Shown: positions 12,345 through 32,619 of the stretch, in pieces | Layout of the letters: the number at the start of each line of letters is the position of its first letter | Position numbering within the stretch: the first letter of the stretch is position 1 | Virus record (IMG/VR): IMGVR_UViG_3300042691_025117 | Coordinates: 1-32,619 of that record | From: a virus | Length of the DNA stretch: 32,619 nucleotides | Direction: 5' to 3' (one strand) | Translations under genes and position numbers: made by a program | The notes under the pieces: model-generated | Told to the model about the DNA's origin: nothing | What the model saw: only the letters and a program-made list of their open reading frames with translations | The model's database searches: none

Positions 12345-13271
12345 ATGACAACAGTTAAATTATCAGAACTAACCGAACTAACAACACCGTCATCGAATAC
12401 AGAAAAGACATTTTTACTGGTAACTGACACTCAAACCGGTTTAGCAGTTTCTAGGAAAATGTCCGTGAAAACATTAGATACATTGATGGATGTGACTCAA
12501 GGACAGGCAAACTTGGCATTTAATCATGCTAATAGTGGATTCAATCAAGCCAACGCAGCATTCATTCGTGCAAATAATTCTTTAAGTGCTAATAGTGGAG
12601 GAATAGTAACAGGTGATGTTTCCATTACTGGTAATTTAACCGTAACTGGTGTAACGACTTACACTAACACCCAAACCGTTTTAGTTGCGGATAATATACT
12701 TACTTTAAACGCTGCAATAGATCAATCGGCTGCTCCATCTTTAAATGCTGGATTAGAAATCGATAGAGGCAGTTCTGCAAATGTGTATCTTTTGTGGAAT
12801 GAATCTAACGACAAATGGACATTTACAGAAGATGGTACAAACTATGACAGTATTGGTAGTGCATCTACAGCTTCTTATGCCAATGCAGCATTTATACATG
12901 CCAACTCTGCGTTCATTCATGCTAACTCAGTATTCGATGTGGCGAATGCGGCGGCAGGAACAGATGTGACACAAAACAACAGTATTACGGCAGCATTTAA
13001 TCAAGCTAATGCTGCATTTGATATTGCTTACTCTACTTCGTTTTATGCTAATGCCGCATTTATACAAGCAAATACACCAAGTCATGTAGCAAATTCTGCT
13101 GCAATTTATGCTAATGGTGCTTTTGCTGCTGCGAATACTGCTGAAGCATACACAGCAGCAAACTTATCAACAGAATTGTGGGCAACATCACCACCCGCAA
13201 CTTTACAAGCCGCAATTGAAAGACTTGCCAATGTAGTGATAGTGTTAAATGGATATACTCCAATACCATAA
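12345..13271 (+). CDS. Fibre-like virion protein with ANAAF heptad repeats
   Basis: 308 aa, not assignable to a T4 gene. The N-terminus (KLSELTELTTPSSNTEKTFL, about residues 5-24) resembles the beta-rich attachment segment seen at the start of many marine phage fibre proteins. A first run of helical heptads follows (AFNHANSGFNQANAAFIRAN), then a beta-repeat segment (GDVSITGNLTVTGVTTYTN) and a domain with LNAGLEIDRGSSANVYLLWN and KWTFTEDGTNYDSIGS. From about 175 onward come many A-N-x-A-F-x-x heptads (SYANAAFIHANSAFIHANS, FNQANAAFDIAYS and so on). The end SPPATLQAAIERLANVVI is helical. Ala and Phe at fixed heptad positions suggest a long trimeric coiled coil or stalk. It sits between the gp7-position gene and gp8, so baseplate attachment is likely. 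Confidence 0.78.
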   Translation: MTTVKLSELTELTTPSSNTEKTFLLVTDTQTGLAVSRKMSVKTLDTLMDVTQGQANLAFNHANSGFNQANAAFIRANNSLSANSGGIVTGDVSITGNLTVTGVTTYTNTQTVLVADNILTLNAAIDQSAAPSLNAGLEIDRGSSANVYLLWNESNDKWTFTEDGTNYDSIGSASTASYANAAFIHANSAFIHANSVFDVANAAAGTDVTQNNSITAAFNQANAAFDIAYSTSFYANAAFIQANTPSHVANSAAIYANGAFAAANTAEAYTAANLSTELWATSPPATLQAAIERLANVVIVLNGYTPIP

Positions 13272-18000: not shown

Positions 18001-21000
18001 CTGTACAATACATTCTCGACACAAATTGATATCTTCAATAATCGTAGATATACGATGAGAGATATTGCAAAACTGGATAAGCGTATTCAGAATCTTGAGA
18101 TTTATACTTCATTATCTATTGCCGAACTTGCAGCAATCAATAAGAATGATCGTACCGTAAGAGATGCTAATGGTTTAAATCGTCCTAAAAATGGTATTTT
18201 CGTTGACTCGTTTACCGATCAAACTGGATCTGATATTACAAGTCCAGATTATACAGCGGCAATTGATGTTATTTCTAGACTGTGTAGAGGCTCATATAAC
18301 ATTGCGTCAACAAGATTGGTTTCAAGTCGTTCAGTAAATGATACGAATGTTGAAATCAATGGACCAGTTTTGATGCTTGCTTCTTCAAATACGACATTTA
18401 TTCAACAAAATAAAGCATCAAAAGCAATCAATGTAAATCCATTTAATGTTATCAATTATTTGGGCACAGTTAAACTTGATCCACCTTCTGATGTTTGGAA
18501 AACTGACGATAGAAGAGAAGCACAGAACATTGATCTAACTGGTGGTAATGCCGCCCGTGATGCATGGTCATCAATTCAAAGTACAACATGGGGCGCATGG
18601 AATACACAGTGGACAACTAACATTCGTGCATCTACAACAACGGACGATGTAGATTTTAATCGAAGAAGAACTACGGTTGACAGAACAACAAGACAAGAAG
18701 CAACTGGAAGAGGCACTGGAGCTGCAATTGTTGAAGATACTACAACAACTACAACAACAAGAATATCTTTAACACAGAATCTTCAGGCATCACGCACAGG
18801 TATTCTTTCTCAAATTGTGCCACAGCAACTTACAAGATCGTTCGGTGATCGTGTAATTGATTTGACAGTTGTTCACTACATGAGACAAAAGAATATTCTG
18901 GTAATTGCAGAAAGATTCAAGCCATTTACATCGTTACATGCATTTTTTGATGCAACTAAAATTGATAATTACATATCTGTTCTCAACAGCCTTGTATTTA
19001 CTCAAAATGATTTAGAGTTCAGCACACCTCTTTCAAATCAAGAGACTGTGAGTTTATATGCTGCAACATCAAATACTGCATTGAAACCAACAGATACACT
19101 GATTGGTGTTGCTGGTATGGTTCATACTGCAAGTGATAGAGGTTATATCGTAAGTTTACCAACTGCATTTGATACATTCGGTTCTTGGAATCAATTATTG
19201 ACCAATGGTATTTGGGCAGTTGGCAGTAGATCGGGTAAAACATATCGTGCCAATAAATGGTATCATCGTGTCGGTAGAGCAAGAGGTGGTTCATCGGTAT
19301 CATCAACAGTAAAAGTCATTTCACTTGCAAATAACGTGTTTGGTGCGGAAAACACTGGTGATTTTGTTGGCCAAACACTTTATATCATTCGTAATACGGG
19401 TGCTGGACAATCTGGTACAATTACGGCATATGATGTATCAACAGGAAATGCAACTGTTAGTGGTCTAACTACGACACCAGACACAACATCTGATTACTCT
19501 ATCGGTTTACTTGAAACAGATGCATATGGTTCTTGTGCAGGTATCTTTAACTGTCCTGATGGTGTATTCAGAACAGGTGAAAAACTATTCCGTTTAATTG
19601 ATGATGAAGTAGGTAACTTGGAGAATTCACGCACCAATGGTGATACAAGTTTCTATGCGTCTGGTATCGTTCAGACTAAACAAGAAACTTCTGTGACGGT
19701 GTTTGTACCAACAGTAACCCGTAGGGAAGTAACAGAATCTTTCTCGGCATCTTCAAGAGCGGCTTGTACTTCTTCAACAACAACCACTACAACAGAGTTT
19801 GTTGCTTATATTGATCCTCTTGCACAAACATTCTTAATTAATGCTTCTCAATATCCACAAGGTATTGTTGTTGATTCTATTCGTGTTTGCTTTAAAACGA
19901 AAGACGCAACTGAATCTGTAACATGTCAGATTCGTCCTGTTGTTAATGGATATCCTTCAGCAACTCAAATATATCCATATGCGGAAAAAGTATTGACACC
20001 TGATAAGGTTAAGATTTCTTTGACGCCAAGTATTACTGACTCAACGAAGTATACTGAGTTTAAGTTTGATATTCCAGTTCTGTTATTACCAGGTGAACAT
20101 TCTTTTGTTCTTCTGTCTAACAGTACAGGATACGAAGCATTTATTGCAGGTATCAATGATACAGATATTGTAACGGGTGCAAAGATATCTGAGCAGCCAT
20201 ACACTGGTTCATTGTTCTTATCACAGAACGGCGCAGTATGGACGGCAGATCAACAAAACGATATAATGTTTGCTATTCAGAAACGAGTGTTTACTAATGA
20301 TGTCGGATATGGTTATCTGGAAACAGATATGTCTGATGTAACAGCAAATGTTGTTTATGATGTTTTACAAGTCATGTCAACTGATGCTGTAATTGCAAAC
20401 ACTAATATTTCTTACGAGTTTATCTCAGAGAAACAAACTGGTGGTCAGCACACTCTGCTACCAATTGTACCTAATTTTGACTATGAAGTAGATGTTGATA
20501 ACAACGGTAGAAGAATACTGAACACTCTAACAGGTAACAGCACATTCCAATTACGAGTTGTTATGTCAACACTAAATCGTGATATTTCTCCAATGATTGA
20601 CATCAATCGTTTGAATCTGTTGACTGTTGAAAACAAGATTAATAATCTTCCGTTGAAGAATACAGGATTCCAAATTACAAATAGCGGCTCTGGATATACA
20701 GGAAATGCTAAAGTAACAATCGGAACGGGTGGAGATGGCACAGCAAACGCTTATGCGAATGTAACCGCCGCTGGAACTGTGGATAAAATTGTTATTGATA
20801 ATCCAGGTAATCTCTATATAAGTTCACCCACAATTACTATTGCATCATCAGCTGGCGTAACTGCAACCGCTGTGTATAACGGTGAAGATAAAGCAACTGG
20901 TGGTAACGGTGATGTTCGTTATATCACTAAAAAAGTTCCACTTGCAACAGGCTTTGATGCTGGCGATCTTCGTGTTTACATGGATCTATATCGTCCACCT

Positions 21001-21354
21001 GGTGCTGGAATTCTTGTTTGGTATAAAATTCTGGCTGAATCTGATCCTAGTCGTTTTGATGACAATAACTGGCAATTAATGACGGAACTATCAGACAGTA
21101 AAAATCTTTATTCTGTGAACAGGGATGATTTCTTCGAAGCCGTTTTTGCTCCAGGCACACAAGATTCTGGTGTACCAGCAAACAAGATAAGATATACATC
21201 TGTATCTGGAACTGGACCACATTCAGATTTTGCCATGTTCCAAATTAAAGTTGTATTATATGGTTCGAGCACTGTGTCTGTTCCAAAATTTGCTCAACTT
21301 CGTGTGATTGCTTTGCCAGAAACAACATTGGTTGGCACAATTATACCTAAGTGA
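15082..21354 (+). CDS. DUF4815-type giant virion structural protein
   Basis: 2090 aa. The N-terminus NVDPYYDDFDGQKNYYRTLF with PGQAVQSRELTQIQTNLQDQ and FGDHIFKTGSVV (about residues 6-65) is the hallmark of the DUF4815 domain found in marine T4-like structural proteins. Further conserved blocks are RRYTMRDIAKLDKRIQNLE (about 988-1006), MRQKNILVIAERFKPFTSL (about 1267-1285) and DPLAQTFLINASQYPQG (1578 on), with VVNGYPSATQIYP, SEQPYTGSLFLSQNGAVW and FAIQKRVF. Thr-rich linkers lie around 1220 and 1565. Residues about 1862-1938 contain a GxGY module (NSGSGYTGNAKVTIGTGGDG). It follows gp8, where T4 has gp9/gp10, so it may form the outer baseplate or fibre-docking structure; that role is inference. 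The RBS is AGAGG just before the start. Confidence 0.85.
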   Translation: MPLTTNFNVDPYYDDFDGQKNYYRTLFKPGQAVQSRELTQIQTNLQDQIKKFGDHIFKTGSVVTGGQITIQNCNYLNITSTFSGADISANNFNEKVIVNAANTKRAYVLRSYSSNEARGEPITFIITQSYGDPFTENETIYTANSDPTAITYYATTANVSAYGNSKAFSVASGVFYYDGFFVENQPQSIAVSKYSANGNALIGFVVSEDIVDYTEDTTLLDPAQSASNFQAPGADRYRIQLTLDNRALDSTDLSKFIELAQFSEGTPQKVIQTPIYGPIGDELARRTYDESGDYVIDNFQISLTDSAANSAYANVILGSGKAYIRGYDYRTIAPTTLSIPKPREKAAVINQRITSDYGYFLYANSYFGNFATNQYDNVAILSINTGQIPYNSVGIVNTNILANSTIGTARVKIEKFYAASGNTQDSDSYIYKLYVTDVNTASIGANNGYGYNSSGAGTTTTILLPTNFAANNDAYKGMTLRVVNSSGNPADNTPRVITAYTGSTWTAAVDPPFTTAPTTNWRLIIDTSIESAESLLRTNTALYRVASANISPMSKNESVGAPPSSLSLNQPLFQPVSIQERRKEPLLIKIGESNVADNTISDFSFAYKKLYQGVTFTGTVSSALSYGTGESLQAAPTEASRRQYYRVVVSDPITSTVYTRGQTIPSDRLSVDTTARTITVSQAITGMVVNVYATINSSNPTSKTKRYVKANTVLVDPAGGRANNIFGNSAVFVSSPDGQTIISEAFLEKRAGRPQTLFASDLHSINAILDFAGTTISTANYEAGAYINVTSRYTFDTGQKDSYYDWGSITLKPGQNAPRGPLLVRYNRFTSSGSGYFNVDSYTRLGSEENGGLGLDYGAIPNFVSQDGAIYKLSDYLDFRPVRRDAGSLGQSDTYTASNFVLDADEANIGTKISEPDLDIITDYEYYLPRVDRVVLTKNREFKILQGVSSINPVVPVEPDDAMTLYVLKYPPYLYNTFSTQIDIFNNRRYTMRDIAKLDKRIQNLEIYTSLSIAELAAINKNDRTVRDANGLNRPKNGIFVDSFTDQTGSDITSPDYTAAIDVISRLCRGSYNIASTRLVSSRSVNDTNVEINGPVLMLASSNTTFIQQNKASKAINVNPFNVINYLGTVKLDPPSDVWKTDDRREAQNIDLTGGNAARDAWSSIQSTTWGAWNTQWTTNIRASTTTDDVDFNRRRTTVDRTTRQEATGRGTGAAIVEDTTTTTTTRISLTQNLQASRTGILSQIVPQQLTRSFGDRVIDLTVVHYMRQKNILVIAERFKPFTSLHAFFDATKIDNYISVLNSLVFTQNDLEFSTPLSNQETVSLYAATSNTALKPTDTLIGVAGMVHTASDRGYIVSLPTAFDTFGSWNQLLTNGIWAVGSRSGKTYRANKWYHRVGRARGGSSVSSTVKVISLANNVFGAENTGDFVGQTLYIIRNTGAGQSGTITAYDVSTGNATVSGLTTTPDTTSDYSIGLLETDAYGSCAGIFNCPDGVFRTGEKLFRLIDDEVGNLENSRTNGDTSFYASGIVQTKQETSVTVFVPTVTRREVTESFSASSRAACTSSTTTTTTEFVAYIDPLAQTFLINASQYPQGIVVDSIRVCFKTKDATESVTCQIRPVVNGYPSATQIYPYAEKVLTPDKVKISLTPSITDSTKYTEFKFDIPVLLLPGEHSFVLLSNSTGYEAFIAGINDTDIVTGAKISEQPYTGSLFLSQNGAVWTADQQNDIMFAIQKRVFTNDVGYGYLETDMSDVTANVVYDVLQVMSTDAVIANTNISYEFISEKQTGGQHTLLPIVPNFDYEVDVDNNGRRILNTLTGNSTFQLRVVMSTLNRDISPMIDINRLNLLTVENKINNLPLKNTGFQITNSGSGYTGNAKVTIGTGGDGTANAYANVTAAGTVDKIVIDNPGNLYISSPTITIASSAGVTATAVYNGEDKATGGNGDVRYITKKVPLATGFDAGDLRVYMDLYRPPGAGILVWYKILAESDPSRFDDNNWQLMTELSDSKNLYSVNRDDFFEAVFAPGTQDSGVPANKIRYTSVSGTGPHSDFAMFQIKVVLYGSSTVSVPKFAQLRVIALPETTLVGTIIPK

Positions 21355-21358
21355 TGAT

Positions 21359-21598
21359 ATGCCATACGTTCAAATAGAATCTCATAAGCACCTTTATCGT
21401 GATTTAGATAGTGGTGCTATATTGAATACTGACGTTGAAGAACTAAAGGCATATCGTGCTCAGGTTGAAATTAAGAATAAAGAGATGGAAGAAAAATTAA
21501 AATTAGAAAACAAAGTAAATAAGTTGGAAGAAGATATTGATGAAATTAAAATACTTCTTCGTAGCTTGATAGAGATGAGAAAACCAGATGGCAATTAA
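21359..21598 (+). CDS. Small coiled-coil virion-associated protein
   Basis: 79 aa. I place the start at the ATG giving MPYVQIESHKHLYRDLDSG, because the longer reading would run into the preceding gene and this N-terminus resembles a common small protein of marine T4-like phages (short beta segment, then a conserved RDxxSGAILNTD motif, residues about 14-25). Residues about 28-72 are a charged heptad coiled coil (VEELKAYRAQVEIKNKEMEE, LENKVNKLEEDIDEIKILLR). It starts 4 nt after the DUF4815 gene stop, and its last 11 nt overlap the next ATG, suggesting coupled translation. It could be a trimerising connector between the baseplate giant and a fibre; function not proven. Confidence 0.78.
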   Translation: MPYVQIESHKHLYRDLDSGAILNTDVEELKAYRAQVEIKNKEMEEKLKLENKVNKLEEDIDEIKILLRSLIEMRKPDGN

Positions 21599-22502
21599 TC
21601 AATTATCCACTGCAAATACATTCCAAGAGTGGTTAACCACAACTTCGTTGTTGGTAGCAACGGCTAATGCTCTTACCGATAATACCAATGGTGGATTCAT
21701 AGCAAACTCTTCCATCTTCGTTCAAGGTTCTAGTGCATCATTAAACGTTCGCACACTTGCAAATATCAATACTTTGCAAGCAAATACAGGTAACATAGCA
21801 AACATCTCACTGATTTCTGGAAGTGTCATTGGCAATGGTAATCTGACTTTTAGTGGCGCTACGATCAGCAATCTTACTTTTGGTAATGTTGTTGTTACTG
21901 GTAATGTTCAGACGCTTAATGTAACAACTGCCCTGCGTGTTGGTGGTGATGCCTTAATTTCTGGTAATTTGATTATTACAGGAAACACCACCCTTGACAA
22001 TATTGGTTTTAATGATTTAAGTATATCGGGTAATGCTTCCGTTGGTAACAATTTAGTTGTAACTCAGAACATTGCAGTAGCAAATGTTACAACAACTTTG
22101 AATGTTGGTAGCAGTATAACTGCACCATTAGCAAATATTGCTAATATCAATCTGTCATTCAGTTCACTGTCTGTTCCAGGCAACTTAACAGTAACCGGCA
22201 CGACTTCCAATATTACTAGAAACTTGGTTGTTGGTGGTAATATTGCCGTAGCAAATATTACTTCGAATGCATATATTGGTGGTGATGCATTCATTTACGG
22301 CAATCTGACAATCTCCGGTAACACAACACTCGACTCAATTGGTTTCAATGATTTGGTTGTAGCTGGTACAATAACTGCACCAAATTTAAGCGTCACAAAT
22401 GCAAATGTCACGATTCTTTCTGGACAAGCAAATACAGCAATTTACAACACCATCGTAGCAGCAATCGATTCTTCAATTGCATTTGCGATTGCTTTAGGTT
22501 AA
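21588..22502 (+). CDS. Fibre-like beta-repeat virion protein
   Basis: 304 aa. The N-terminus INQLSTANTFQEWLTTTSLL with a following helix (about residues 3-30) is a recurrent start of virion proteins in marine T4-like phages. The rest is a Gly/Asn/Thr/Val beta-repeat stalk, with SGNLIITGNTTLDNIGFNDL-type units at about residues 118-150 and 231-262 that are nearly the same, separated by GNNLVVTQNIAVANVTTTL and RNLVVGGNIAVANIT. The pattern xGNLxIxGNTTL resembles triple-beta-spiral or beta-helix fibre shafts, and a shorter version occurs in the 308-aa protein at 12345. Its ATG overlaps the preceding gene by 11 nt. It could be a short tail fibre or a baseplate appendage. Confidence 0.75.
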   Translation: MAINQLSTANTFQEWLTTTSLLVATANALTDNTNGGFIANSSIFVQGSSASLNVRTLANINTLQANTGNIANISLISGSVIGNGNLTFSGATISNLTFGNVVVTGNVQTLNVTTALRVGGDALISGNLIITGNTTLDNIGFNDLSISGNASVGNNLVVTQNIAVANVTTTLNVGSSITAPLANIANINLSFSSLSVPGNLTVTGTTSNITRNLVVGGNIAVANITSNAYIGGDAFIYGNLTISGNTTLDSIGFNDLVVAGTITAPNLSVTNANVTILSGQANTAIYNTIVAAIDSSIAFAIALG

Positions 22503-22509
22503 ATAAATA
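22502..22509 (+). promoter_or_regulatory. T4-type late promoter octamer before fibre cassette A
   Basis: AATAAATA, in a true intergenic gap. Usual spacing puts the start near 22515, giving a leader of about 15 nt with an AGAGG ribosome site at about 22520-22524 and the ATG at 22530. Confidence 0.5.
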
Positions 22510-22529
22510 GATAAAAAACAGAGGTTTTA

Positions 22530-22862
22530 ATGGCTAATACTTTTAAAAATTCAACTTTGAAATCAGTTGGAACATCAGTGCAAAATGTTTATGCTGCCGG
22601 AGCAGGTGTTCAATCTACGGTAATTGGAATGACGGTTGCCAATATGGTTACTACTCCAATTTCAGTAAGCGTTAGCCTAAGTGGTGGAACTATTACAGGA
22701 AACGTTTTTTTAATCAAAGATGCCACAGTCGCTCCTGGCGGCGCATTAGTGCCTATTGGTGGTGATCAAAAGGTTGTGCTTGAAGCGGGAGACTATTTAC
22801 AAGTAAACACTTCAGTTGCATCATCTGCTGATGTTGTAGTTTCAGTTCTGGAGATCAGTTAA
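22530..22862 (+). CDS. Small beta-rich virion protein (EIS family), cassette A copy 1
   Basis: 110 aa. The predicted fold is a compact beta sandwich: QSTVIGMTVANMVTTPISVS, a Thr/Gly strand pair, then VVLEAGDYLQVNTSVAS and the final VVVSVLEIS. The pattern 'xIxxLxVAN ... LEAGDxLxV ... ExS' is shared with the ORFs at 26960 and, more loosely, 23304, so this family is represented three times here. It has its own AGAGG ribosome site and late promoter, and its stop overlaps the next ATG (TTAATGG). In marine phages such small proteins accompany fibre genes. A role as fibre collar or adaptor is inference; no enzyme motif is present. Confidence 0.75.
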   Translation: MANTFKNSTLKSVGTSVQNVYAAGAGVQSTVIGMTVANMVTTPISVSVSLSGGTITGNVFLIKDATVAPGGALVPIGGDQKVVLEAGDYLQVNTSVASSADVVVSVLEIS

Positions 22863-23284
22863 TGGCATACATAGGAAACACTCCTGAGGTTAGTTTTTAC
22901 ACTTTAGGAGTGGAAAAATTTAGTGGTACTGGTGCTTGTACAGAGTTTACTCTTGGTAGAACTATCAGTGATGCTAATACTATTTCTGTTGTGGTGAGTG
23001 GAGTTTCTCAGATTCCAGGTGATTCATACTCAGTTGCAGCCGGCGTTCTGACTTTTACAGAAGCACCAGCATCTAGTGCCAATAACATCATTGTCACTTA
23101 TCTTGCGACAAGTGTGTACACTCAATATATTCCAGGTCAATTTGCTCCTGGTTCAGTCACGCAAACAGCACTTGCTACAAATGCAGTCACAGAAACTAAA
23201 ATTGCAAACAACGCAGTTACAGGCGAAAAAATTAGTACACCAGCCGACATTTTTGATGATTCGTTTTTATTTGGTGGAATGTAA
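22862..23284 (+). CDS. Small fibre protein with YIGN N-terminus, cassette A
   Basis: 140 aa. It begins MAYIGNTPEVSFYT. A beta domain like the N-terminal adaptor of T7-type fibres follows: VEKFSGTGACTEFTLGRTIS, SVVVSGVSQIPGDSYSVAAG, LTFTEAPASSANNIIVTYL (about residues 18-80). A short TKIANNAVTGEKI-type shaft repeat (about 105-123) comes next, and it ends in DSFLFGGM. The paralogue at 26591 shares all the beta-domain landmarks and the FGG end. It is translationally coupled to the gene before it. Likely a short fibre or adaptor that docks a longer fibre; receptor binding cannot be inferred. Confidence 0.76.
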   Translation: MAYIGNTPEVSFYTLGVEKFSGTGACTEFTLGRTISDANTISVVVSGVSQIPGDSYSVAAGVLTFTEAPASSANNIIVTYLATSVYTQYIPGQFAPGSVTQTALATNAVTETKIANNAVTGEKISTPADIFDDSFLFGGM

Positions 23285-23303
23285 ACAAAAGGAAAACTAA
23301 CAA

Positions 23304-23642
23304 ATGGCAAGAGCATATAAAATTTTAGGTCAAACAAATCCAACAGCAAATGTGCTGACTACATTATACAATGTGCCTGCTGGTAATTCAGCAATCATTT
23401 CGTCAATTACAATTGCTAATCTTGATGAAAATTCTGTTAGTGGCGCTGCATTCAGAATCGCAGCAAATGTTTCTGGTGTTGCTGTTTCTAATGCAAGTTA
23501 TATCGCATATGGTGTTAATGTGCCAGGTCGTGATGCTATCACATTAACACTTGGCGTAACCCTCAATGCAGGTTCAATTGTTTCAGTCAACGCTAATAGT
23601 TCACTACTTTCTTTTTCAGCATTTGGTACTGAAATTTACTAA
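23304..23642 (+). CDS. Small beta-rich virion protein (EIS family, divergent), cassette A copy 2
   Basis: 112 aa. The series LYNVPAGNSAIISSITIAN, a Val/Ala-rich strand pair, the loop VNVPGRDAITLTLGVTLNAG, then IVSVNANSSLLSFSAFGTEI has the same order of strands as the proteins at 22530 and 26960, and all three end in E-I-S/Y. An AAAGGA ribosome site is present in the 19-nt gap upstream. It precedes the first glycine-rich adhesin by 12 nt, so it may be that fibre's partner. No signal peptide or enzyme motif. Confidence 0.74.
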   Translation: MARAYKILGQTNPTANVLTTLYNVPAGNSAIISSITIANLDENSVSGAAFRIAANVSGVAVSNASYIAYGVNVPGRDAITLTLGVTLNAGSIVSVNANSSLLSFSAFGTEIY

Positions 23643-23654
23643 TTGGAATTTTAA

Positions 23655-26123
23655 ATGGCTCTGAATAGAATCTCTGTAAGTAGAGTATCACTTAAACGAA
23701 TGACCGTGCCAGGATTTGGTGCGGCTGTTACTCCCGTTACTCCTCCTGCCCCAAATGTTGGTATGCAAGTTTTCACAGAAACAACTAATTGGGTAGCACC
23801 ACCAGGCACAACATCAGTTGAATATCTTGTTATTGCTGGTGGAGGAGGTGGTGGTGTTGGTGAAAATAATTCAGCAGGTGGTGGAGGTGGAGGTGGAGGT
23901 GCAGGTGGTGTTCGTCAAGGTTCTGGACTTAATGTGACACCAAATCAAACATATACATTTGTTGTTGGTGCGGGTGGAACGGGGTCGGGTGATCCTACGG
24001 GAGGTTCAAACGGAAGCAATTCCGGCATTTATAGCACTGGTGCTGTTCCTTTTTCAGCATTATGGAGCACTGGTGGTGGTAGAGGTGGAAATGATAACAA
24101 TCCTGCATATCAAGGTGGTATGTCTGGTGGCTCTGGTGGTGGAGGTGGTGGTGATGCTCCCTCACCTTCAAAAGGATTGGCCACATCTGGTCAAGGATTT
24201 GATGGAGGAAATGGTGCACCATCACGATGCGCTGCTGGTGGTGGTGGTGCTGGTAGTGTTGGTCAAGATGGACAGGCTGGAGCTGGAGGCAATGGTGGTA
24301 TAGGTATCTTCTCAACAATCACAGGTGCAAACACAGCATATGCTGGTGGTGGTGGTGGTGGCAGAGGAGGAAATCAACCACTTGGTGGTAAAGGTGGTGC
24401 AGGTTATGCATCTTACGGTACACCTGGAAATGGAACGCCATTTGGTGGTGGAAATGGTGGACCTGGAGCAGCATCAGCAAATACCTACACTGGTGGTGGT
24501 GGAGGAGGAGGTAGCTCTGAGGGTGGTTCGCCGGGAGCAAATGTACCAGGTGGTAATGGTGGCTCGGGCATCATCGTTCTCAAATACACATTCGGTGACT
24601 CAACCAATCAAACATTCGTTTTCGCAAACACAGGACAATTTAGAGTGCCCGATGGCATCACAACAATCGATTATTTGTTAGTTGCTGGAGGTGGCGGTGG
24701 TGGTGGCAGTGGTTCTGGTATTGGCGGCGGTGGTGGTGGTGCAGGAGGATTCTTAACAGGTGTTGGATATCCCGTAGGACCAAATCAATTATACACTATT
24801 CAGGTAGGTGCTGGTGGCTCAGGAGGAAGTGGACAAGTTCAAGGCTCAAATGGAGTCAATACAGTAATATCTGCGGGTAATACTGCAAATGCTATCATAT
24901 TATCCGCATTTGGTGGCGGCGGTGGTGGTGGTGGTAACGGTTCGCCAGCAAGTAGTGGCAGAGCAGGTGGTTCTGGTGGTGGAGCAAGTAATGGTAATGC
25001 TGGCGCAGGAACTCCTGGACAAGGAAACAATGGTGGTTCAACCGATAGTGGCGCTCCAGCTTATAGACTTTCTGGAGGCGGCGGTGCTGGTGCTGCCGGT
25101 GTTTCTGGTGTATCTACTGGTAACGGTGGTGCTGGTTCATCTTCTACTATAACGGGCTCATCTGTTACATACGCTGGTGGCGGAGGTGGTGGAAACAACA
25201 CTGGTCCCGCATCTTCTGGAGGAACTGGTGGAGGTGGTGCTGGTAATGGTGGAACAGGATCAAACAATTTAGGTGGTGGCGGCGGTGGCGCTCCTAATGG
25301 AGGAACTGGTGGTAGTGGTGGTTCAGGCTTTGCTGTCATCAAAATTTCTGCTACACAAAACAAAATTGTAGTATTCTCTAACACAGCAACATGGAATGTG
25401 CCCACTGGAGTATCGTCATTAGAATATCTTGTTGTTGGTGGTGGAGGTGGTGGTTCAAGTTATGGCGGTGGTGGTGCGGGTGGTTATAGAGCAGGAACAG
25501 GATATGTTGTTACACCCGCACAGACACACAATATTATAGTTGGTGCGGGTGGTGCGGGTGGTTATGGTGCACCGGGTATCAACGGTTCAAACTCGACTTT
25601 TGCTACTATCACTTCAATCGGTGGTGGCGGTGGTGGTGCTGATGCTTCGCCAAACTCTCCCGTTGACCAAACCAGAGGTAAAAATGGTGGTTCTGGTGGC
25701 GGTGGTGCTGGTCGTGGTGAGCCTAGTGGTTCAAAAGCGGGTGGAACAGGAACGCCGGGACAGGGAAACAATGGTGGTAATGGTTCACCTAGTGACTTGG
25801 GTCCTTTTGCAGGTGGTGGTGGTGGTGGCGCTGGTGCGGCAGGTCAGAACTCACCCGGAGGTGGTGGTAATGGTGGTGTTGGATTAGAAAATACTATCAC
25901 TGGTGTTGCGGGAATATACTACGCAGGCGGTGGTGGGGGAGGAAATTTTACTTCTACTCCAGTAGGTGTGGGTGGACTTGGTGGTGGTGCGAACGGCACA
26001 ATCGTTAGTGTTACTGCTCCACAAGGTCAAGCTGGAACTGGAGGTGGTGGCGGAGGTGCAGGTGGTGGCGGTGCGGGTGGTGGAACAGGTGGTTCTGGAA
26101 TCGTCATTCTCAGATGGACTTAA
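23655..26123 (+). CDS. Glycine-rich three-module tail fibre/adhesin, cassette A
   Basis: 822 aa. A short basic N-terminus (ALNRISVSRVSLKRMTVPGF) and a Pro-rich linker are followed by three copies of one domain at about residues 37-312, 321-566 and 571-822. Each copy opens with VF..T..W..P.G..S.EYL(V/L)(V/I)AGGGGGG, continues with GGGGAGG..., TPNQTY...VGAGG, long G-rich loops, ITG.N.AYAGGGGGG (copies 1 and 3 clearest) and closes with GGSGxxVxKxx or GIVILRWT. Such proteins are known in marine T4-like phages as glycine-rich domain tail fibres. The composition recalls the polyglycine-helix sandwich of T2/S16 gp38 receptor-binding adhesins. Receptor binding is therefore a likely but unproven role. 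The N-terminus differs from that of the two paralogues downstream. Confidence 0.85.
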   Translation: MALNRISVSRVSLKRMTVPGFGAAVTPVTPPAPNVGMQVFTETTNWVAPPGTTSVEYLVIAGGGGGGVGENNSAGGGGGGGGAGGVRQGSGLNVTPNQTYTFVVGAGGTGSGDPTGGSNGSNSGIYSTGAVPFSALWSTGGGRGGNDNNPAYQGGMSGGSGGGGGGDAPSPSKGLATSGQGFDGGNGAPSRCAAGGGGAGSVGQDGQAGAGGNGGIGIFSTITGANTAYAGGGGGGRGGNQPLGGKGGAGYASYGTPGNGTPFGGGNGGPGAASANTYTGGGGGGGSSEGGSPGANVPGGNGGSGIIVLKYTFGDSTNQTFVFANTGQFRVPDGITTIDYLLVAGGGGGGGSGSGIGGGGGGAGGFLTGVGYPVGPNQLYTIQVGAGGSGGSGQVQGSNGVNTVISAGNTANAIILSAFGGGGGGGGNGSPASSGRAGGSGGGASNGNAGAGTPGQGNNGGSTDSGAPAYRLSGGGGAGAAGVSGVSTGNGGAGSSSTITGSSVTYAGGGGGGNNTGPASSGGTGGGGAGNGGTGSNNLGGGGGGAPNGGTGGSGGSGFAVIKISATQNKIVVFSNTATWNVPTGVSSLEYLVVGGGGGGSSYGGGGAGGYRAGTGYVVTPAQTHNIIVGAGGAGGYGAPGINGSNSTFATITSIGGGGGGADASPNSPVDQTRGKNGGSGGGGAGRGEPSGSKAGGTGTPGQGNNGGNGSPSDLGPFAGGGGGGAGAAGQNSPGGGGNGGVGLENTITGVAGIYYAGGGGGGNFTSTPVGVGGLGGGANGTIVSVTAPQGQAGTGGGGGGAGGGGAGGGTGGSGIVILRWT

Positions 26124-26131
26124 AAACACAG

Positions 26132-26139
26132 CATAAATA
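26132..26139 (+). promoter_or_regulatory. T4-type late promoter octamer before fibre cassette B
   Basis: CATAAATA in the 38-nt gap after the first glycine-rich gene. The expected start near 26145 gives a leader of about 17 nt. The ribosome site AAGGTGAG lies at about 26151-26158 and the ATG at 26162. One mismatch to TATAAATA. Confidence 0.5.
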
Positions 26140-26161
26140 TTTTTATTTTAAAGGTGAGTGA

Positions 26162-26575
26162 ATGAATACTGAACAAATTTCTTATGCACAATATTTAATT
26201 GGTAACAACAATAAACTTGTGTGTGGTATCGATACTGCTATTAAAGCACTTCGACCACACGCAAGATATGATATGTCTGCATCTGGTGGACATTTTGAGT
26301 TCACACGTTGGGAAGATGAAACTGGCACTAAGCCACCAACAAAAGAAGAAATTTTTGAAGAACTAGAATATCAGAATAAGTTTATCGATTACTGGCAGCA
26401 TTTTTTAGATCGTGCTGTAAATTATCCTGATATTGTAGTTTTAATTAACTTATTATATGATGCGATAGATAATGGTGAAATTCCAGGTAAAGGAAGCGGA
26501 TTCTATAATGCTATCAAAGAAGTCAACGACAAGTTTCCAAAACCTGAAGGCGAACCTCCTAGCAAAAATAATTAA
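26162..26575 (+). CDS. Small fibre-associated protein, possibly XkdW/assembly-like
   Basis: 137 aa. The middle of the N-terminal half has the layout common in small proteins next to phage fibre genes: CGIDTAIKALRPHARYDMSA, then FTRWEDETGTKPPTKEEIFE (about residues 21-67), similar to the XkdW-type 'A..AL.P.A.f......i.W.d......PT.eEI' pattern. The second half is helical, FIDYWQHFLDRAV and IVVLINLLYDAIDNGEIPGK, with an acidic/proline tail. It lies between the two fibre cassettes and is not glycine-rich, so a folding or assembly helper for the fibres is plausible. The similarity is weak and I could not check it against a database. The RBS AAGGTGAG is strong. Confidence 0.6.
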   Translation: MNTEQISYAQYLIGNNNKLVCGIDTAIKALRPHARYDMSASGGHFEFTRWEDETGTKPPTKEEIFEELEYQNKFIDYWQHFLDRAVNYPDIVVLINLLYDAIDNGEIPGKGSGFYNAIKEVNDKFPKPEGEPPSKNN

Positions 26576-26590
26576 AAATTAAGGAATTAA

Positions 26591-26956
26591 ATGTCGTATA
26601 TTGGAAATCAAGTAACTTCAGTCCCGTTTACTGCTGATGTTTTCAGTGGTACGGGCAGTGCCACATCTTTTGGGCCAATGATACGAATTCCTGCTACGAT
26701 TGCTTCTATAGCAGTTTTTGTGAACGGTTCATATAAAACACCCGGCATAGACTACACATTGGATGTAGATTACATTATCTTTACAACGCCACCTGCACTG
26801 GGTGTAAACAACATCGTTGCACATCATTTAGGTAATGGTGTCATGGCAACACAAGTACCCGCTGATGGTGCTGTTACACCAAATAAATTTTCATCATCAG
26901 CAAATAACAAAATTTTTAGTTCGGGCGTTGTAGGCTCGATCATATTCGGAGGTTAA
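26591..26956 (+). CDS. Small fibre protein with YIGN N-terminus, cassette B
   Basis: 121 aa, paralogue of the ORF at 22862. It shares SYIGN at the start, DVFSGTGSATSFGPM, IAVFVNGSYKTPGIDYTLD, IIFTTPPALGVNNIVAHHL, a short C-terminal linker and the final IIFGG. It lacks the TKIANNAVTGEK-type shaft of the cassette A copy. An AAGGA ribosome site precedes it, and the next gene starts 3 nt after the stop. Likely the same adaptor or short-fibre role as its paralogue. Confidence 0.75.
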   Translation: MSYIGNQVTSVPFTADVFSGTGSATSFGPMIRIPATIASIAVFVNGSYKTPGIDYTLDVDYIIFTTPPALGVNNIVAHHLGNGVMATQVPADGAVTPNKFSSSANNKIFSSGVVGSIIFGG

Positions 26957-26959
26957 TAA

Positions 26960-27343
26960 ATGGCAGCGCCAAACATTGTTAGCGTAACAGATATTAGAGG
27001 TAAAAGTAACGTTGCCAACGTTACAACAGTTTCATCGTCAGTGATTGTTAATCCTGTCAACTCAAACAAAGTATTTAAAATTAACACACTGATTGTGTCT
27101 AATGTTGACGGTACAAACGCTGGTAATGTGTCAGTGGAATTGTTCAAATTTGGCGCACAAAACACAAGCACAGGTTTAGGTAATGCAACATATGCTATTG
27201 CAAACACTGTTACTGTACCCGCTAAATCATCATTAGATATTTTATCTAAGTCACTTTATCTTGAAGAGGGTGATCACATCAAAGTAAAAGGCGATGCAAA
27301 CAATCGTCTACATTTCATTTCATCATTTGAAGAGATTAGCTAA
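26960..27343 (+). CDS. Small beta-rich virion protein (EIS family), cassette B
   Basis: 127 aa. NSNKVFKINTLIVSNVDGTN, a strand pair VSVELFKFG, the linker NTVTVPAKSSLDILSKSLYL, EEGDHIKVKGD and the last strand FISSFEEIS reproduce the order of the family seen at 22530 and 23304. The last base of the stop overlaps the ATG of the next glycine-rich gene (CTAATG), so this protein and the fibre are probably made in coupled amounts. The role in fibre attachment is inference. Confidence 0.76.
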   Translation: MAAPNIVSVTDIRGKSNVANVTTVSSSVIVNPVNSNKVFKINTLIVSNVDGTNAGNVSVELFKFGAQNTSTGLGNATYAIANTVTVPAKSSLDILSKSLYLEEGDHIKVKGDANNRLHFISSFEEIS

Positions 27344-29901
27344 TGCCATTAGGTTTAAATGGTGGTATCATTGGTTTAGTAAATGCAACAACTAGAACTG
27401 GTGGTGCCACTGGTATTTGGTCATTAAGTGAGGCAGGAATTAGTAGTCTTGTTGGACTATGGCCTGAACCTTTTTCAGGTGTTCGAGTATTCACACAGTC
27501 AGACTTATGGATAGCACCGTCTGGTGTAACAAGTGTAGAATACCTTATTGTTGCGGGTGGTGGCGGTGGTGGAGGTATCAGTACCCTTGCTGGTAGTGCC
27601 GGTGGCGGTGGTGCTGGTGGATATTTAACAGGAACTTCACTTTCAGTAGTAGAAAATCAAGCGTATACAATCGTTATCGGTGCTGGAGGAAATGGTGGTG
27701 GAGCGGGAGCCGTAAACGGTTCTAATGGCTCGAACTCTGGAATATGGGGATCATCTCCTTTTCCTGCCGTTTGGTCAGCAGGTGGTGGTGGTGGTGGTAG
27801 AGGAAGAATTGGACCATTAGGAGACACTGGTCGATCAGGAGGATCAGGTGGTGGCGGCGGTTATAGCGATGCTCCTAACACTTCACGATTAGGTGGTTCT
27901 GGAACTCCAGGACAAGGAAACGATGGTGGTCGTGGAGGAATAGGTACACCCTATGGTGGCGGTGGTGGTGGTGGCGCAGGTGCAGTTGGACAAAATGCTC
28001 CATCTGCACCCTCTCCAGGGTCATGTGCTGGAGGTTCAGGTTCTTTCTCAACAATTACAGGTGCAAACACCGCATATGCCGGTGGCGGAGGCGGTGGAAA
28101 TGAAGCATCATCATTTGGTCCTGGTGGTGTTGGTGGTGGCGGAAATGGTGGACGAAATGGAGGCGGTAGTGTCGGTGTAGTCAATACAGGTGGTGGTGGC
28201 GGTGGTGCTGGTGGTCCTCCCACTTCTGCTGGCGGTTCGGGTGGTTCAGGTATAGTTATTCTGAAATATAAGTTTGGCACATCAACAAATACATTATTCA
28301 CATTTGCAAACACAGGTCAGTTTGTAGTGCCTGACGGCATTACGACGATTGATTATTTGTTAGTTGCTGGTGGTGGTTCCGGTGGCACAGCTAGAGGTGG
28401 TGGCGGCGGTGCTGGCGGCGTTCTTCAAGTAACCGGTTATCCAGTAGCACCTGGACAACTTTATACAATTCAAATTGGTGCTGGTGGAGCCGGTGTGTCA
28501 GGTGATACATCATCAATGCAAAATGGTGCTAATGGAACAAATACTGTTTTATCCGCAGGTAATACGGTAAACGCAGCAATATTTACTGCAATTGGTGGTG
28601 GCGGTGGTGGAGGACCTGGAAATGGAATGGCTGGTGGTTCTGGTGGCGGTGGTGGTAGCCAAAACGCTCCAACTGGAACACCCTTTGCCGCCACATATCC
28701 TGGAGGTTTAGGCGTTTCATCACAAGGAAATAGAGGTGGACAAGGAACAAGAGCGCCTGCACCAGCACTCACGACTGGTGGTGGAGGAGGTGGTGGAGCA
28801 GCAAATATAGGAGGTGACGCAAACACTACGTTTGCGGGAACTGGTGGATCAGCATTTTACTCATCTATCACAGGAGCAAATACAGGTTATGGCGGCGGTG
28901 GCGGTGGTGGAGCTGCTGGAACTCTTGGCGCTGGTGGTGTCGATGCTAGTGGTGGAGGTGGCGTTGGTGGAGGTTCGCCAGGTTCACCCGGAACTAATGC
29001 CGTTCAAAATCGTGGAGGTGGAGGTGGTGGTGCTGGTAACGCTAGTTCACCTACCGTAGGAGTATCTGGTGCAGGTGGATCAGGTTTTGCAGTTATCAGA
29101 GTTTCAGCAGTGCAAAATAAGATAGCAGTATTCTCTAACACAGCAACATGGAATGTACCAATCAATGTTTCATCGATTGAATATTTAATTGTCGGTGGTG
29201 GTGGTGGTGGTGGATCAAGATATGGTGGTGGTGGTGGCGCCGGTGGGTATCGTGCGGGTTCAGGATTTGGAGTATCGTCAGCACAAACATGGACTATTGT
29301 AGTCGGCGCCGGTGGTGCAGCAGGGGTTGAAGGAGATACCAGCACACAAAAACCAGGTTCAAACTCTGGAATTTACACTGCAACTACATCATTATGGGGT
29401 GCGGGTGGTGGTGGTGGTGGACATAATGGTCCTGATGGAACTGCATATGCTGGAGGAAATGGTGGTTCTGGTGGAGGTGGATCCGCTGGAGGAGCAGGAA
29501 CACCAACTGCTGGACAAGGCAACATACCAAACGTTTCACCCGCTCAAGGAACTGGAGGTGGAACTGGAATAGGAGCACCTGGTGCACCAGTATATGGTTC
29601 TGGTGGAGGTGGAGGCGCTTCTGCTAATGGAACAAATGGTACTGGTGCAAGTACGGGTGGTGGTGCTGGCGGCAATGGAATACAAAACACAATTACTGGA
29701 GTAAACACATATTATGCCGGCGGCGGTGGTGGAGGTTCAAATGCGGGAGCTGCACCTGGAAGGGGATCTGGTGGTTTAGGTGGCGGTGGTGGTGGTGCAA
29801 TTATAAATGGAACAGTTGCTACTGGAGGTGGTGGTGCGGGTGGTGCTCCCGGTGGTGTTGGTGCTGGTGGTTCAGGTGTCGTCATTCTCAAATGGACATA
29901 A
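27343..29901 (+). CDS. Glycine-rich three-module tail fibre/adhesin, cassette B copy 1
   Basis: 852 aa. The N-terminus NGGIIGLVNATTR...GATGIWSLSEAG and GLWPE (about residues 6-43) is a short attachment-like segment shared with the next gene but not with the fibre at 23655. Three glycine-rich modules then follow at about 47-311, 318-589 and 594-852, each opening VF(T/S)......P....S.EYLIV(A/G)GGGGGGG or TTIDYLLVAGGG and ending GGSGIVILKY, GFAVIRVSA or GSGVVILKWT. Loops such as GTPGQGNDGG and GANTAYAGGGGGGN recur. It is positionally homologous module by module to both other glycine-rich proteins. Likely a receptor-binding or fibre-tip protein; the receptor is unknown. Confidence 0.85.
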   Translation: MPLGLNGGIIGLVNATTRTGGATGIWSLSEAGISSLVGLWPEPFSGVRVFTQSDLWIAPSGVTSVEYLIVAGGGGGGGISTLAGSAGGGGAGGYLTGTSLSVVENQAYTIVIGAGGNGGGAGAVNGSNGSNSGIWGSSPFPAVWSAGGGGGGRGRIGPLGDTGRSGGSGGGGGYSDAPNTSRLGGSGTPGQGNDGGRGGIGTPYGGGGGGGAGAVGQNAPSAPSPGSCAGGSGSFSTITGANTAYAGGGGGGNEASSFGPGGVGGGGNGGRNGGGSVGVVNTGGGGGGAGGPPTSAGGSGGSGIVILKYKFGTSTNTLFTFANTGQFVVPDGITTIDYLLVAGGGSGGTARGGGGGAGGVLQVTGYPVAPGQLYTIQIGAGGAGVSGDTSSMQNGANGTNTVLSAGNTVNAAIFTAIGGGGGGGPGNGMAGGSGGGGGSQNAPTGTPFAATYPGGLGVSSQGNRGGQGTRAPAPALTTGGGGGGGAANIGGDANTTFAGTGGSAFYSSITGANTGYGGGGGGGAAGTLGAGGVDASGGGGVGGGSPGSPGTNAVQNRGGGGGGAGNASSPTVGVSGAGGSGFAVIRVSAVQNKIAVFSNTATWNVPINVSSIEYLIVGGGGGGGSRYGGGGGAGGYRAGSGFGVSSAQTWTIVVGAGGAAGVEGDTSTQKPGSNSGIYTATTSLWGAGGGGGGHNGPDGTAYAGGNGGSGGGGSAGGAGTPTAGQGNIPNVSPAQGTGGGTGIGAPGAPVYGSGGGGGASANGTNGTGASTGGGAGGNGIQNTITGVNTYYAGGGGGGSNAGAAPGRGSGGLGGGGGGAIINGTVATGGGGAGGAPGGVGAGGSGVVILKWT

Positions 29902-29904
29902 CAA

Positions 29905-32514
29905 ATGGCAAGTAGAAGATTTAACGGCGGAATAATTGGTATACTCAACACTGCTAAGTTTGGTGGTGATACTACAGGCTTGTGGACACAAAATGAAGTA
30001 TCTTTGAATAGACTTGCTGGTTCGTGGCCACGTGATGATTTAATTGGTGTTAGAGTATTCACAGAAACTACAACATGGAATCCACCTCAAGGAGTAACTT
30101 CTGCTGATTATTTGATTGTTGCTGGTGGAGGAGGCGGTGGTAGAGCCGCCAGTCCTCCAGCACCGGGCGTTAGCAATGGTGGTGGAGGTGGTGGTGCTGG
30201 TGGAGTTGGACAAGGCACAGGTTTTTCCGTTTCTCCAGGCCAAACATATACTATCGTGATTGGCGCTGGCGGCGCTGGTGATTCATCTCCATCGACCACA
30301 ACTGCTGGTTCGAACGGCTCCAATTCTGGAATGTATGGTACTGCACCATTTCCTGCTATTTGGAGAACGGGTGGTGGTGGTGGTGCTGGAAATAATCCAG
30401 GTAGTGCAGGACCAGCACCATCGTTTCCAGGACTTCAAACTGCTGGATGGGCCGGTCGTGGTGGTGGTTCTGGTGGAGGAGGGTGTCAAAATCCTGCTTT
30501 AAGTGTTGCTGGAGGCAGTGGAAACTTAGGAGGTTACACTCCAGCAGAAGGATTTGGTGGTGCACCCGGTGCACCGGGTGGAAGTTTTGGTGGTGGGGGT
30601 GGAGGTGCTTCAAGTAGCGGCGCTGCTTCTAATGGCGGCGCTGGAATTTTTTCTACAATTTCAGGATCAAACACCGCTTACGCTGGTGGAGGAGGAGGAG
30701 GAGCTGCTTCAGTAACCTCCTTACAGAGAGGCGGTGGTGGTTATGCTTCTTATGGAACTTTATTAGGAACACCTTATGGTGGTGGTAATGGAGGTATGGG
30801 TGTTACACCTTCATTTGCCGCAAATGGTGCAAGTGGCAATACAAACTCCGGCGGAGGTGGTGGTGGGGGTGGCCGCAGCACACCAAGTTTTATGCCAGCT
30901 GGTTCTGGTGGTTCGGGTGTTATTGTACTAAAATATTATAGAACAAAGTCACAAAATACCATATTCACATTTGCAAATACAGGACAATTTGTAGTACCTG
31001 ACGGAATCACATCAATCGATTATCTGCTAGTTGCGGGTGGTGGCGGTGGTGGTAACGCAACAGTTGGCGCTGGGCCGCTTGCTGTTGCTGCTGGTGGTGG
31101 TGGTGCTGGTGGTGTTCTTCAAGGAACAGGATATCCAGTAACACCAAATCAACTCTACACAATCCAAATCGGTGCTGGCGGAACAGGAGGAGGTTCTAAT
31201 GGCGTTAATACAATATTTTCGGTTGGTAATACAGCAAATGCTATATTATTAACAGCAGAAGGTGGTGGAGGTGGAGGTAGTAGTCCTACTGCACCCGCAA
31301 CTCCCGGATTAAATGGTAAATCAGGAGGTTCTGGTGGTGGAGGAGCAGGAGGAGTATTTAGTGATCCTGCACTCTTAGGATTAGGTGGGCTTGGAAAAAG
31401 TGGACAAGGAAATAATGGAGCAAGTAATGGCTCTGTTCCTGGTCAGGCTGTTGGAGGTTCGGGTGGTGGTGCCGGTTCAGCAGGCAATAAATCAACTGGC
31501 CAATTTGGTGCTAATGGTGGTGCTGGAATTTATTCGACGATTACTGGTTCCAATACTGCATATGGTGGCGGTGGTGGAGGTCAAAACTCATGGAACAATG
31601 CTGGAGGTGTTGGAGGTGGTGGTGCAAGTGCTGCTGGTATACCACTTACAATACAATCATCTCCAGGAGAACCTAATTCTGGTGGTGGAGGTGGTGCTGG
31701 AGCAATGCAAATAACCGCTCCGGCTGGTGCTTCAGGCGGCTCAGGTTTTGCAGTTATCAGAGTTTCTGCTGTACAAAATAAAATAGCGGTTTTTGCTAAT
31801 ACAGGTACATGGACTGTGCCTACAGGAGTTTCTTCAGTTGAATATCTGGTCGTTGCCGGTGGTGGAGGTTCAACAGGCACTGGCACTGGTGCCGGTGGTG
31901 GCGCAGGTGGCTATTTAACAGGAACTAATTTTGGAGTGACTCCTGCACAAACTATTACTGTTGTTGTTGGTGCGGGAGGTGCTGGTAGTCCAAGTGCTCT
32001 GAATGCGTCTAATGGTGTGAACTCTTCATTTAGTACAATTATAGCTATTGGTGGTGGCGGTGGCGCATTAACAGATTCCGCAACAAATGGACGTTCCGGA
32101 GGCTCTGGTGGCGGAGGTGGTAGAGGTGGTTCTGGTGGTTTAGGTACACCGGGTCAAGGAAATAATGGAGGTGGAAGTGTCGATTCTCCAGGTGCAAATT
32201 ATGGTGCTGGTGGTGGCGGTGGGGCTGGAGGTATTGGTGGAACAGGAACTTCAACAACAGGTGGAAATGGTGGAGATGGCTTATTGAATGCTATTTCAGG
32301 AGCTTCTGTTTATTACGCCGGTGGTGGTGCTGGTGGTACGTATCAAGGAGGGACTCCTGGAACGGGTGGTTTAGGTGGCGGTGGAAATGGTGGAAATTTC
32401 CCTGCACCTGAAGGCGTTGCGGGAAGTGTATCAACTGGCGGTGGAGCTGGCGGCGGTGGAACAAATCCGGGTAAAGCCGGTGGTTCAGGCATAGTCGTTC
32501 TCAAGTGGACATAA
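29905..32514 (+). CDS. Glycine-rich three-module tail fibre/adhesin, cassette B copy 2
   Basis: 869 aa, starting 3 nt after the previous stop. The N-terminus FNGGIIGILNTAKF...TTGLWTQNEV and AGSWPRD (about residues 6-43) matches its upstream neighbour. Modules lie at about 49-347, 353-622 and 627-869. The first is longest, with extra loops including PAEGFGGAPGAPGGSFGGGG. The second carries ITSIDYLLVAGGGGGG and ITGSNTAYGGGGGGQ, and the last ends GGSGIVVLKWT. Modules 2 and 3 are joined by the same VSAVQNKIAVF linker as in the 852-aa protein. Together the two proteins look like products of tandem gene duplication whose glycine loops have diverged. Probable alternative or heteromeric fibre tip. 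Confidence 0.85.
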   Translation: MASRRFNGGIIGILNTAKFGGDTTGLWTQNEVSLNRLAGSWPRDDLIGVRVFTETTTWNPPQGVTSADYLIVAGGGGGGRAASPPAPGVSNGGGGGGAGGVGQGTGFSVSPGQTYTIVIGAGGAGDSSPSTTTAGSNGSNSGMYGTAPFPAIWRTGGGGGAGNNPGSAGPAPSFPGLQTAGWAGRGGGSGGGGCQNPALSVAGGSGNLGGYTPAEGFGGAPGAPGGSFGGGGGGASSSGAASNGGAGIFSTISGSNTAYAGGGGGGAASVTSLQRGGGGYASYGTLLGTPYGGGNGGMGVTPSFAANGASGNTNSGGGGGGGGRSTPSFMPAGSGGSGVIVLKYYRTKSQNTIFTFANTGQFVVPDGITSIDYLLVAGGGGGGNATVGAGPLAVAAGGGGAGGVLQGTGYPVTPNQLYTIQIGAGGTGGGSNGVNTIFSVGNTANAILLTAEGGGGGGSSPTAPATPGLNGKSGGSGGGGAGGVFSDPALLGLGGLGKSGQGNNGASNGSVPGQAVGGSGGGAGSAGNKSTGQFGANGGAGIYSTITGSNTAYGGGGGGQNSWNNAGGVGGGGASAAGIPLTIQSSPGEPNSGGGGGAGAMQITAPAGASGGSGFAVIRVSAVQNKIAVFANTGTWTVPTGVSSVEYLVVAGGGGSTGTGTGAGGGAGGYLTGTNFGVTPAQTITVVVGAGGAGSPSALNASNGVNSSFSTIIAIGGGGGALTDSATNGRSGGSGGGGGRGGSGGLGTPGQGNNGGGSVDSPGANYGAGGGGGAGGIGGTGTSTTGGNGGDGLLNAISGASVYYAGGGAGGTYQGGTPGTGGLGGGGNGGNFPAPEGVAGSVSTGGGAGGGGTNPGKAGGSGIVVLKWT

Positions 32515-32564: not shown

Positions 32565-32619
32565 ATGGCACATTTTGCACAACTTGATGAAAACAATGTA
32601 GTAACTCAAGTCATTGTTG
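32565..32619 (+). CDS. 5' end of a conserved small virion-type protein (cut by window end)
   Basis: Only 18 codons are visible: MAHFAQLDENNVVTQVIV. This opening (MAHFAxLDxNNxVxxVIV) is a frequently seen N-terminus of a conserved protein in marine T4-like phages, usually of unknown function. A perfect late promoter and a strong ribosome site support a real start. The rest lies outside the window, so length and domains cannot be given. Confidence 0.72.
   Translation, partial: MAHFAQLDENNVVTQVIV

Follow-up and report, generated by a model that had tools for sequence, protein, structure and literature searches.

The window analysed here is a 32.6-kb fragment (32,619 nucleotides) of a virus of lake bacteria, IMG/VR record IMGVR_UViG_3300042691_025117, and its right-hand part carries an island of fibre-like genes in which three proteins, called Gly-A, Gly-B and Gly-C, each contain three copies of one glycine-rich module. 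These Gly proteins are likely to be exchangeable receptor-binding fibre tips of a T4-like (Kyanoviridae-type) phage. The module itself is of a known type, and the island is a new arrangement of known parts. The argument relies on the predicted fold of the module, on the place of the island behind the baseplate genes, on small mounting genes that are conserved among relatives, and on the exchange of tips between related phages.

Glycine-rich modules and their predicted fold

The first-pass annotation of this DNA had described three genes of 822, 852 and 869 amino acids (aa) with three domain copies each, nine in all. The open reading frames (ORFs) proved exact, and the family PF21722 (Gly_rich_2) matches three stretches in each protein (E 2e-54 to 1e-58), with scores of 196, 199 and 185 bits for a cut-off of 24.3. 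Their layout is as follows.

23655..26123, + strand: Gly-A, 822 aa, a 36-aa anchor (MALNRISVSRVSLKRM...) and three Gly modules, A1 (23763-24611), A2 (24612-25364) and A3 (25365-26120); PF21722 1.2e-57
27343..29901, + strand: Gly-B, 852 aa, a 46-aa anchor (NGGIIG...GIWSL) and three Gly modules, B1 (27481-28293), B2 (28294-29121) and B3 (29122-29898); PF21722 1.1e-58; modelled as a full chain
29905..32514, + strand: Gly-C, 869 aa, a 48-aa anchor (NGGIIG...GLWTQ) and three Gly modules, C1 (30049-30960), C2 (30961-31782) and C3 (31783-32511); PF21722 2.3e-54

The nine modules measure 243-304 aa (a domain of ~260 aa), contain 32-38% Gly and are 43-63% identical to one another, or 27-58% when Gly columns are left out. 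All three proteins also match phrog_2295, which carries no function annotation, and a literature search on PF21722 found nothing. The likeness of the modules is not a mere effect of composition, because the real modules far outscore two types of shuffle: with a profile made from relatives only, they reach 161-207 bits, residue shuffles all fall below -18 bits, and shuffles that leave every Gly at its position do not exceed 50 bits. Gly accounts for 46 of the 51 near-invariant columns of the module alignment, and 161 of its 425 columns are gappy, in other words loops vary in length and sequence; the invariant Gly columns fit a conserved Gly stem bearing variable loops. Raised G+C in the Gly genes (~50%) comes from Gly codons, and a foreign origin of this high-GC island was ruled out, since G+C at third codon positions (0.18-0.20) resembles that of the baseplate genes (0.22). 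A phmmer search of the PDB with Gly-A gave no match; neither did tblastn with Gly-B against a phage collection, where the query was probably removed by low-complexity filtering, and relatives were found by profile searches instead.

Module A3 was modelled with AlphaFold2 from 47 aligned modules of the window and related contigs (predicted local distance difference test score, pLDDT, 94.4; predicted template modelling score, pTM, 0.92). The best structural match is the tip of the tail fibre gp24 of cyanophage Pam3 (7ypx; Z 15.6, root-mean-square deviation 2.4 Å over 172 residues), followed by a tail-tip protein of mycobacteriophage Bxb1 (9d93_Qb; Z 15.5, 176 residues) and by the glycine-rich domain of ALK/LTK (7nx3, 7lir and others; Z up to 9.5). 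A PDB profile search also places the Pam3 fibre first, with a match that is weak (E 0.073) and colinear. Viral models sharing the fold are numerous and mostly named just ‘Glycine-rich domain-containing protein’. The module is thus predicted to adopt the Pam3/ALK type of fold, a TNF-like sandwich whose loops form a Gly lattice. DSSP assigns the Gly runs of the A3 model to neither helix nor strand; polyglycine-II geometry is suggested by analogy with the structural match, and the Gly dihedrals of Pam3 gp24 have been described as near beta-sheet (PMC9608196). The earlier idea of a glycine-rich adhesin with variable loops agrees with the single-module prediction and the Pam3 fibre-tip match, except that the predicted fold is not of the gp38 type then proposed (see below).

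In a full-chain model of Gly-B the strand pattern is repeated three times. A single-chain pseudo-trimer, with three modules in place of the Pam3 trimer, was considered and is disfavoured by the module counts, other chains having 1, 2 or 4; the Gly-B model (pLDDT 72.9, pTM 0.46) cannot settle this idea.

Module turnover behind a conserved scaffold

Comparison of the locus across related phages, proposed in the first-pass annotation, revealed strong module turnover and variable loops on a conserved scaffold. In the closest relative, gp8 is 93% and the island scaffold genes 83-97% identical, whereas Gly-A is 68% and Gly-B 52% identical; Gly-C has its best match in a different Gly gene, a clear partner being lost. 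Within Gly-A the anchor is 100% identical, A2 92%, A1 66% and A3 60%. Nonsynonymous divergence (dN) amounts to 0.30-0.51 in the variable modules; for those scaffold and baseplate genes that were tested it is 0.02-0.07. Synonymous divergence (dS) of A1 and A3 is no higher than that of gp6, and therefore this comparison alone cannot tell replacement from fast change in place, by which the A1/A3 contrast, taken alone, could also be explained.

The wider set of relatives provides further evidence. In a tree restricted to three-module chains (63 modules), with many branches poorly supported, 7 changes are counted by chain position (shuffled mean 30.3) and 46 by phage of origin; modules group by chain position rather than by phage. 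Clear module pairs with 86-92% identity occur between phages in which the modules next to them share mostly 46-59%, and one module, 87-88% identical among its copies, stands at position 1 of a slot-1 gene, at position 1 of another gene and at position 3 of a third. Such near-identical modules at different positions are the best evidence for whole-module exchange.

Gene order is mostly shared by dozens of related contigs: VrlC-like, p304, EIS, YIGN, EIS, [Gly], p137, YIGN, EIS, [Gly], [Gly], the last Gly gene being followed in relatives by the MAHFAQ protein, a 111-aa protein and a long fibre-like protein. Modules are present in 32 of the 36 related records searched. Among 98 distinct Gly chains, some of them cut by contig ends, 42 have one module, 17 two, 32 three and 5 four; one close relative holds about 15 modules on a 70-kb contig, and another 14. 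The description of three domains per chain and three chains per phage thus holds for the window and represents one state of a variable system, with 1-4 modules per chain elsewhere. As the record is a fragment, nine modules are the minimum for this phage, and ‘nine per phage’ is a lower bound. The first Gly slot is occupied by a non-Gly protein in four relatives (L148, L164, L166 and L174). In some relatives an additional Gly gene lies well away from the main island (L119:8264-11404, L125:5018-7465), among non-fibre genes, and bears another anchor type (MP..AS...YGL). The largest Gly chain seen is a 1404-aa ORF in L153 with six profile matches, whose module count is not settled.

The cultured Melnitz phages constitute a natural swap pair. 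Melnitz-1 has a protein in which a YIGN domain and a Gly module are fused. Its counterpart in Melnitz-3, where 13.4 kb of upstream DNA are 99.9% identical, retains the YIGN part and bears a different domain in place of the Gly tip; elsewhere in this region of Melnitz-3, two other genes contain Gly modules. Between the two (L141 versus L142, island region) several kb of tail-fibre genes are replaced, and the replaced stretch includes tail assembly chaperone genes adjoining the swapped tips. Length changes in the tail-fibre region were reported for one Melnitz isolate (PMC9004378).

Island layout and mounting genes

Ahead of the island, PHROG matches identify a cluster of T4-like phage baseplate genes. 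The island adjoins these genes and follows directly after a VrlC-like DUF4815 gene, where pelagimyophages have their host recognition cluster. Besides the Gly genes, the features are as follows.

15082..21354, + strand: VrlC-like / DUF4815 baseplate protein of 2090 aa, landmark upstream of the island; PF16075 6e-61, phrog_358 E 0, homologues annotated VrlC/adsorption
21588..22502, + strand: p304, first scaffold gene, repeat-rich, putatively fibre-like; 95.7% identical in the closest relative, place kept in most relatives
22530..22862, + strand: EIS1, small, beta-rich, phrog_1276 type; position conserved in relatives
22862..23284, + strand: YIGN1, tail-fibre domain, elsewhere N-terminal mount of a Gly module; PHROG tail fibre and PDB fibre matches, Melnitz fusion
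23304..23642, + strand: EIS2; phrog_1276, recurs in relatives
26162..26575, + strand: p137, 137 aa, conserved between Gly genes, candidate fibre-assembly factor; 97% identical in the closest relative, 38 related loci
26591..26956, + strand: YIGN2; PHROG and PDB fibre matches, recurs in relatives
26960..27343, + strand: EIS3; PHROG match, recurs in relatives
32565..32619, + strand: MAHFAQLD protein, N-terminal start only, truncated where the window ends; in relatives located behind the last Gly gene

The conserved unit begins at p304 (21588) or at a small unlisted gene (21359) and extends beyond the window end. The small paired EIS and YIGN genes noticed around the Gly genes at first reading are present, and the EIS-YIGN-p137 set recurs in relatives. 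The two related cassettes suggested there are not copies of each other, YIGN1 and YIGN2 being 35% and the EIS paralogues 22-25% identical, and their anchors differ, that of Gly-A (MALNRISVSRVSLKRM) being unlike those of Gly-B and Gly-C (NGGIIG...G-I/L-W). Only a few N-terminal anchor types exist across chains (MALNRIS..., NGGIIG...G-I/L-W and MP..AS...), and one anchor type bears differing numbers of modules in different chains. In the PDB, the profile of YIGN finds solved fibre and depolymerase chains of phages (9k4a, 1.5e-8; 8i4m, 8e-8), and for EIS no usable PDB match was found.

For protein p137, nothing informative was matched in Pfam, the PDB or NCBIfam; its assignment to a solved chaperone family was dropped, as no PDB match was usable. 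It may have a role in fibre assembly. Its family, with the motif LRP.A...W.D....PPT.EEI, nearly always lies between Gly genes, matches just PHROGs without function, resembles a fibre-assembly factor and is duplicated in one relative (L004, 7469-8334).

Several observations concern the neighbourhood. An unlisted 79-aa coiled-coil-like ORF (MPYVQIESHKHLYRDLDSGAIL..., 21359-21598, + strand) lies between the VrlC-like gene and p304 and is kept in the closest relative; a similar-sized gene follows the VrlC-like homologue in Melnitz, HTVC008M and Ochrobactrum phage OC, the HTVC008M counterpart being annotated as a virion structural protein. Further upstream, a 1702-aa gene (7228-12336, + strand) has an N-terminal baseplate-wedge match as its sole Pfam match, and a 308-aa gene (12345-13271, + strand) is without PHROG match at 0.001. 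The T4 late-promoter motif TATAAATA has one match versus 2 expected by chance.

Readings of the island and known systems

If the Gly proteins are fibre tips, each chain would be held by its short N-terminal anchor on the baseplate or on the EIS/YIGN fibre proteins, a rigid stem made of the Gly lattice would present variable loops, and these loops, exposed on the virion, would bind host surface structures, with tandem modules providing several binding faces per fibre and p137 aiding folding or assembly. Module exchange and loop change would then let the phage alter or widen its binding while the baseplate is not rebuilt. A more specific version, advanced here tentatively, is that of a combinatorial adhesin: chains would bear several differing PF21722 tips in position-specific classes, recombined at inter-module linkers between chains and phages, so that many specificities are displayed at once and changed module by module, with YIGN, EIS and p137 serving as an unchanging kit for mounting and assembly.

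Several results weigh against reading the Gly proteins as receptor-binding tips. The fold alone is no proof of phage receptor binding, PF21722 occurring also outside phages (Methanosarcina, used as control, and algal viruses). The full-chain model of Gly-B is weak, leaves the arrangement of the modules unfixed and has a disordered 43-residue anchor. Positive selection on whole modules was not seen, dN/dS being 0.33-0.46 with no dN above dS. Finally, Melnitz isolates that differ in this region had an identical host range on the few OM43 strains tried (PMC9004378).

This last result would suit tandem modules that act as fibre stems of a generic, sticky or stiff kind (weak glycan or particle binding), with another fibre, for example the long MANTPIQI protein found downstream in relatives, setting specificity. 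The long fibre-like gene downstream in relatives, the several Gly genes per phage, the variation of 1-4 modules per chain and the unchanged host range of the Melnitz variants (PMC9004378) all speak for such stems. However, position-specific module classes fit specific recognition better, entire tips are replaced behind fixed anchors, and modules diverge strongly compared with the conserved scaffold, which makes generic stems improbable. A virion decoration or protective coat with no part in host binding would accord with the wide distribution of the PF21722 family, but is very unlikely given the place of the genes in the tail-fibre cluster behind a baseplate gene, the match of the fold to fibre tips and the YIGN tail-fibre mounts. 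The first-pass annotation had likened the domains to gp38 of T2/S16, and membership of that family, with repeated polyglycine sandwiches, would explain the glycine-rich motifs with variable loops; moreover, Pam3 gp24 and S16 gp38 are said by the Pam3 authors to share a similar glycine-rich architecture (PMC9608196). S16 gp38, taken as positive control, matches PF05268 GP38 (4e-73) and PF21721 Gp38_N (1e-19), whereas the window proteins have no match to either at E 0.1; hhalign of the modules with gp38 gives a probability of 1.8%, and the module hidden Markov model scores -18.4 on S16 gp38, under the best shuffle of gp38. A PF05268 search of the record itself found no match, was without working control and was not used alone; the S16 structure 6F45 is not among the matches listed for the A3 model, which is no proof of a different fold. 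At the level of sequence the family claim is thus scarcely credible, and an analogy of function with gp38 may stand.

Should the Gly proteins indeed be exchangeable tips, T4-like phages of a widespread freshwater group would diversify host binding by swapping whole modules of a solved fold on constant mounts. A function would be suggested for phrog_2295-type proteins, now labelled only ‘Glycine-rich domain-containing protein’, and phage-host specificity in uncultured lake bacteria would become testable from sequence.

Among known systems, Pam3 gp24 (7ypx, 7yfw) shares the module fold, a TNF-like sandwich with a glycine-rich lattice, at the tip of a phage tail fibre. Its domain has six glycine-rich loops, its diversity increases towards the tip, where variable distal loops were proposed to be receptor-binding, mass spectrometry found it in virions, and it requires the chaperone gp25 (PMC9608196). 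It is a homotrimer with a single module per chain behind a helical shaft, whereas the island encodes several chains with 1-4 modules each on short anchors. The Bxb1 tail-tip protein shares a module-like glycine-rich domain, Bxb1 being a siphophage. ALK/LTK has the same general TNF-like plus glycine-rich fold, but is an animal receptor of which merely 104-121 residues align, with 18-24% identity. S16 gp38 (6F45) resembles the modules in that glycine-rich motifs and variable segments alternate at the tip of a fibre; it differs in Pfam family, in base fold (beta-helix and three-helix cap, against the sandwich predicted for the module) and in being a monomeric cap attached to gp37 via three helices. 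With respect to genomic place, the counterpart is the host recognition cluster of pelagimyophages, reported as hypervariable between VrlC and gp14 (PMC7029224), i.e. a fibre region between VrlC and the neck genes in the same place as the island. Glycine-rich modules are without mention in that paper (PMC7029224), and in the island described here the variable unit is resolved down to single modules.

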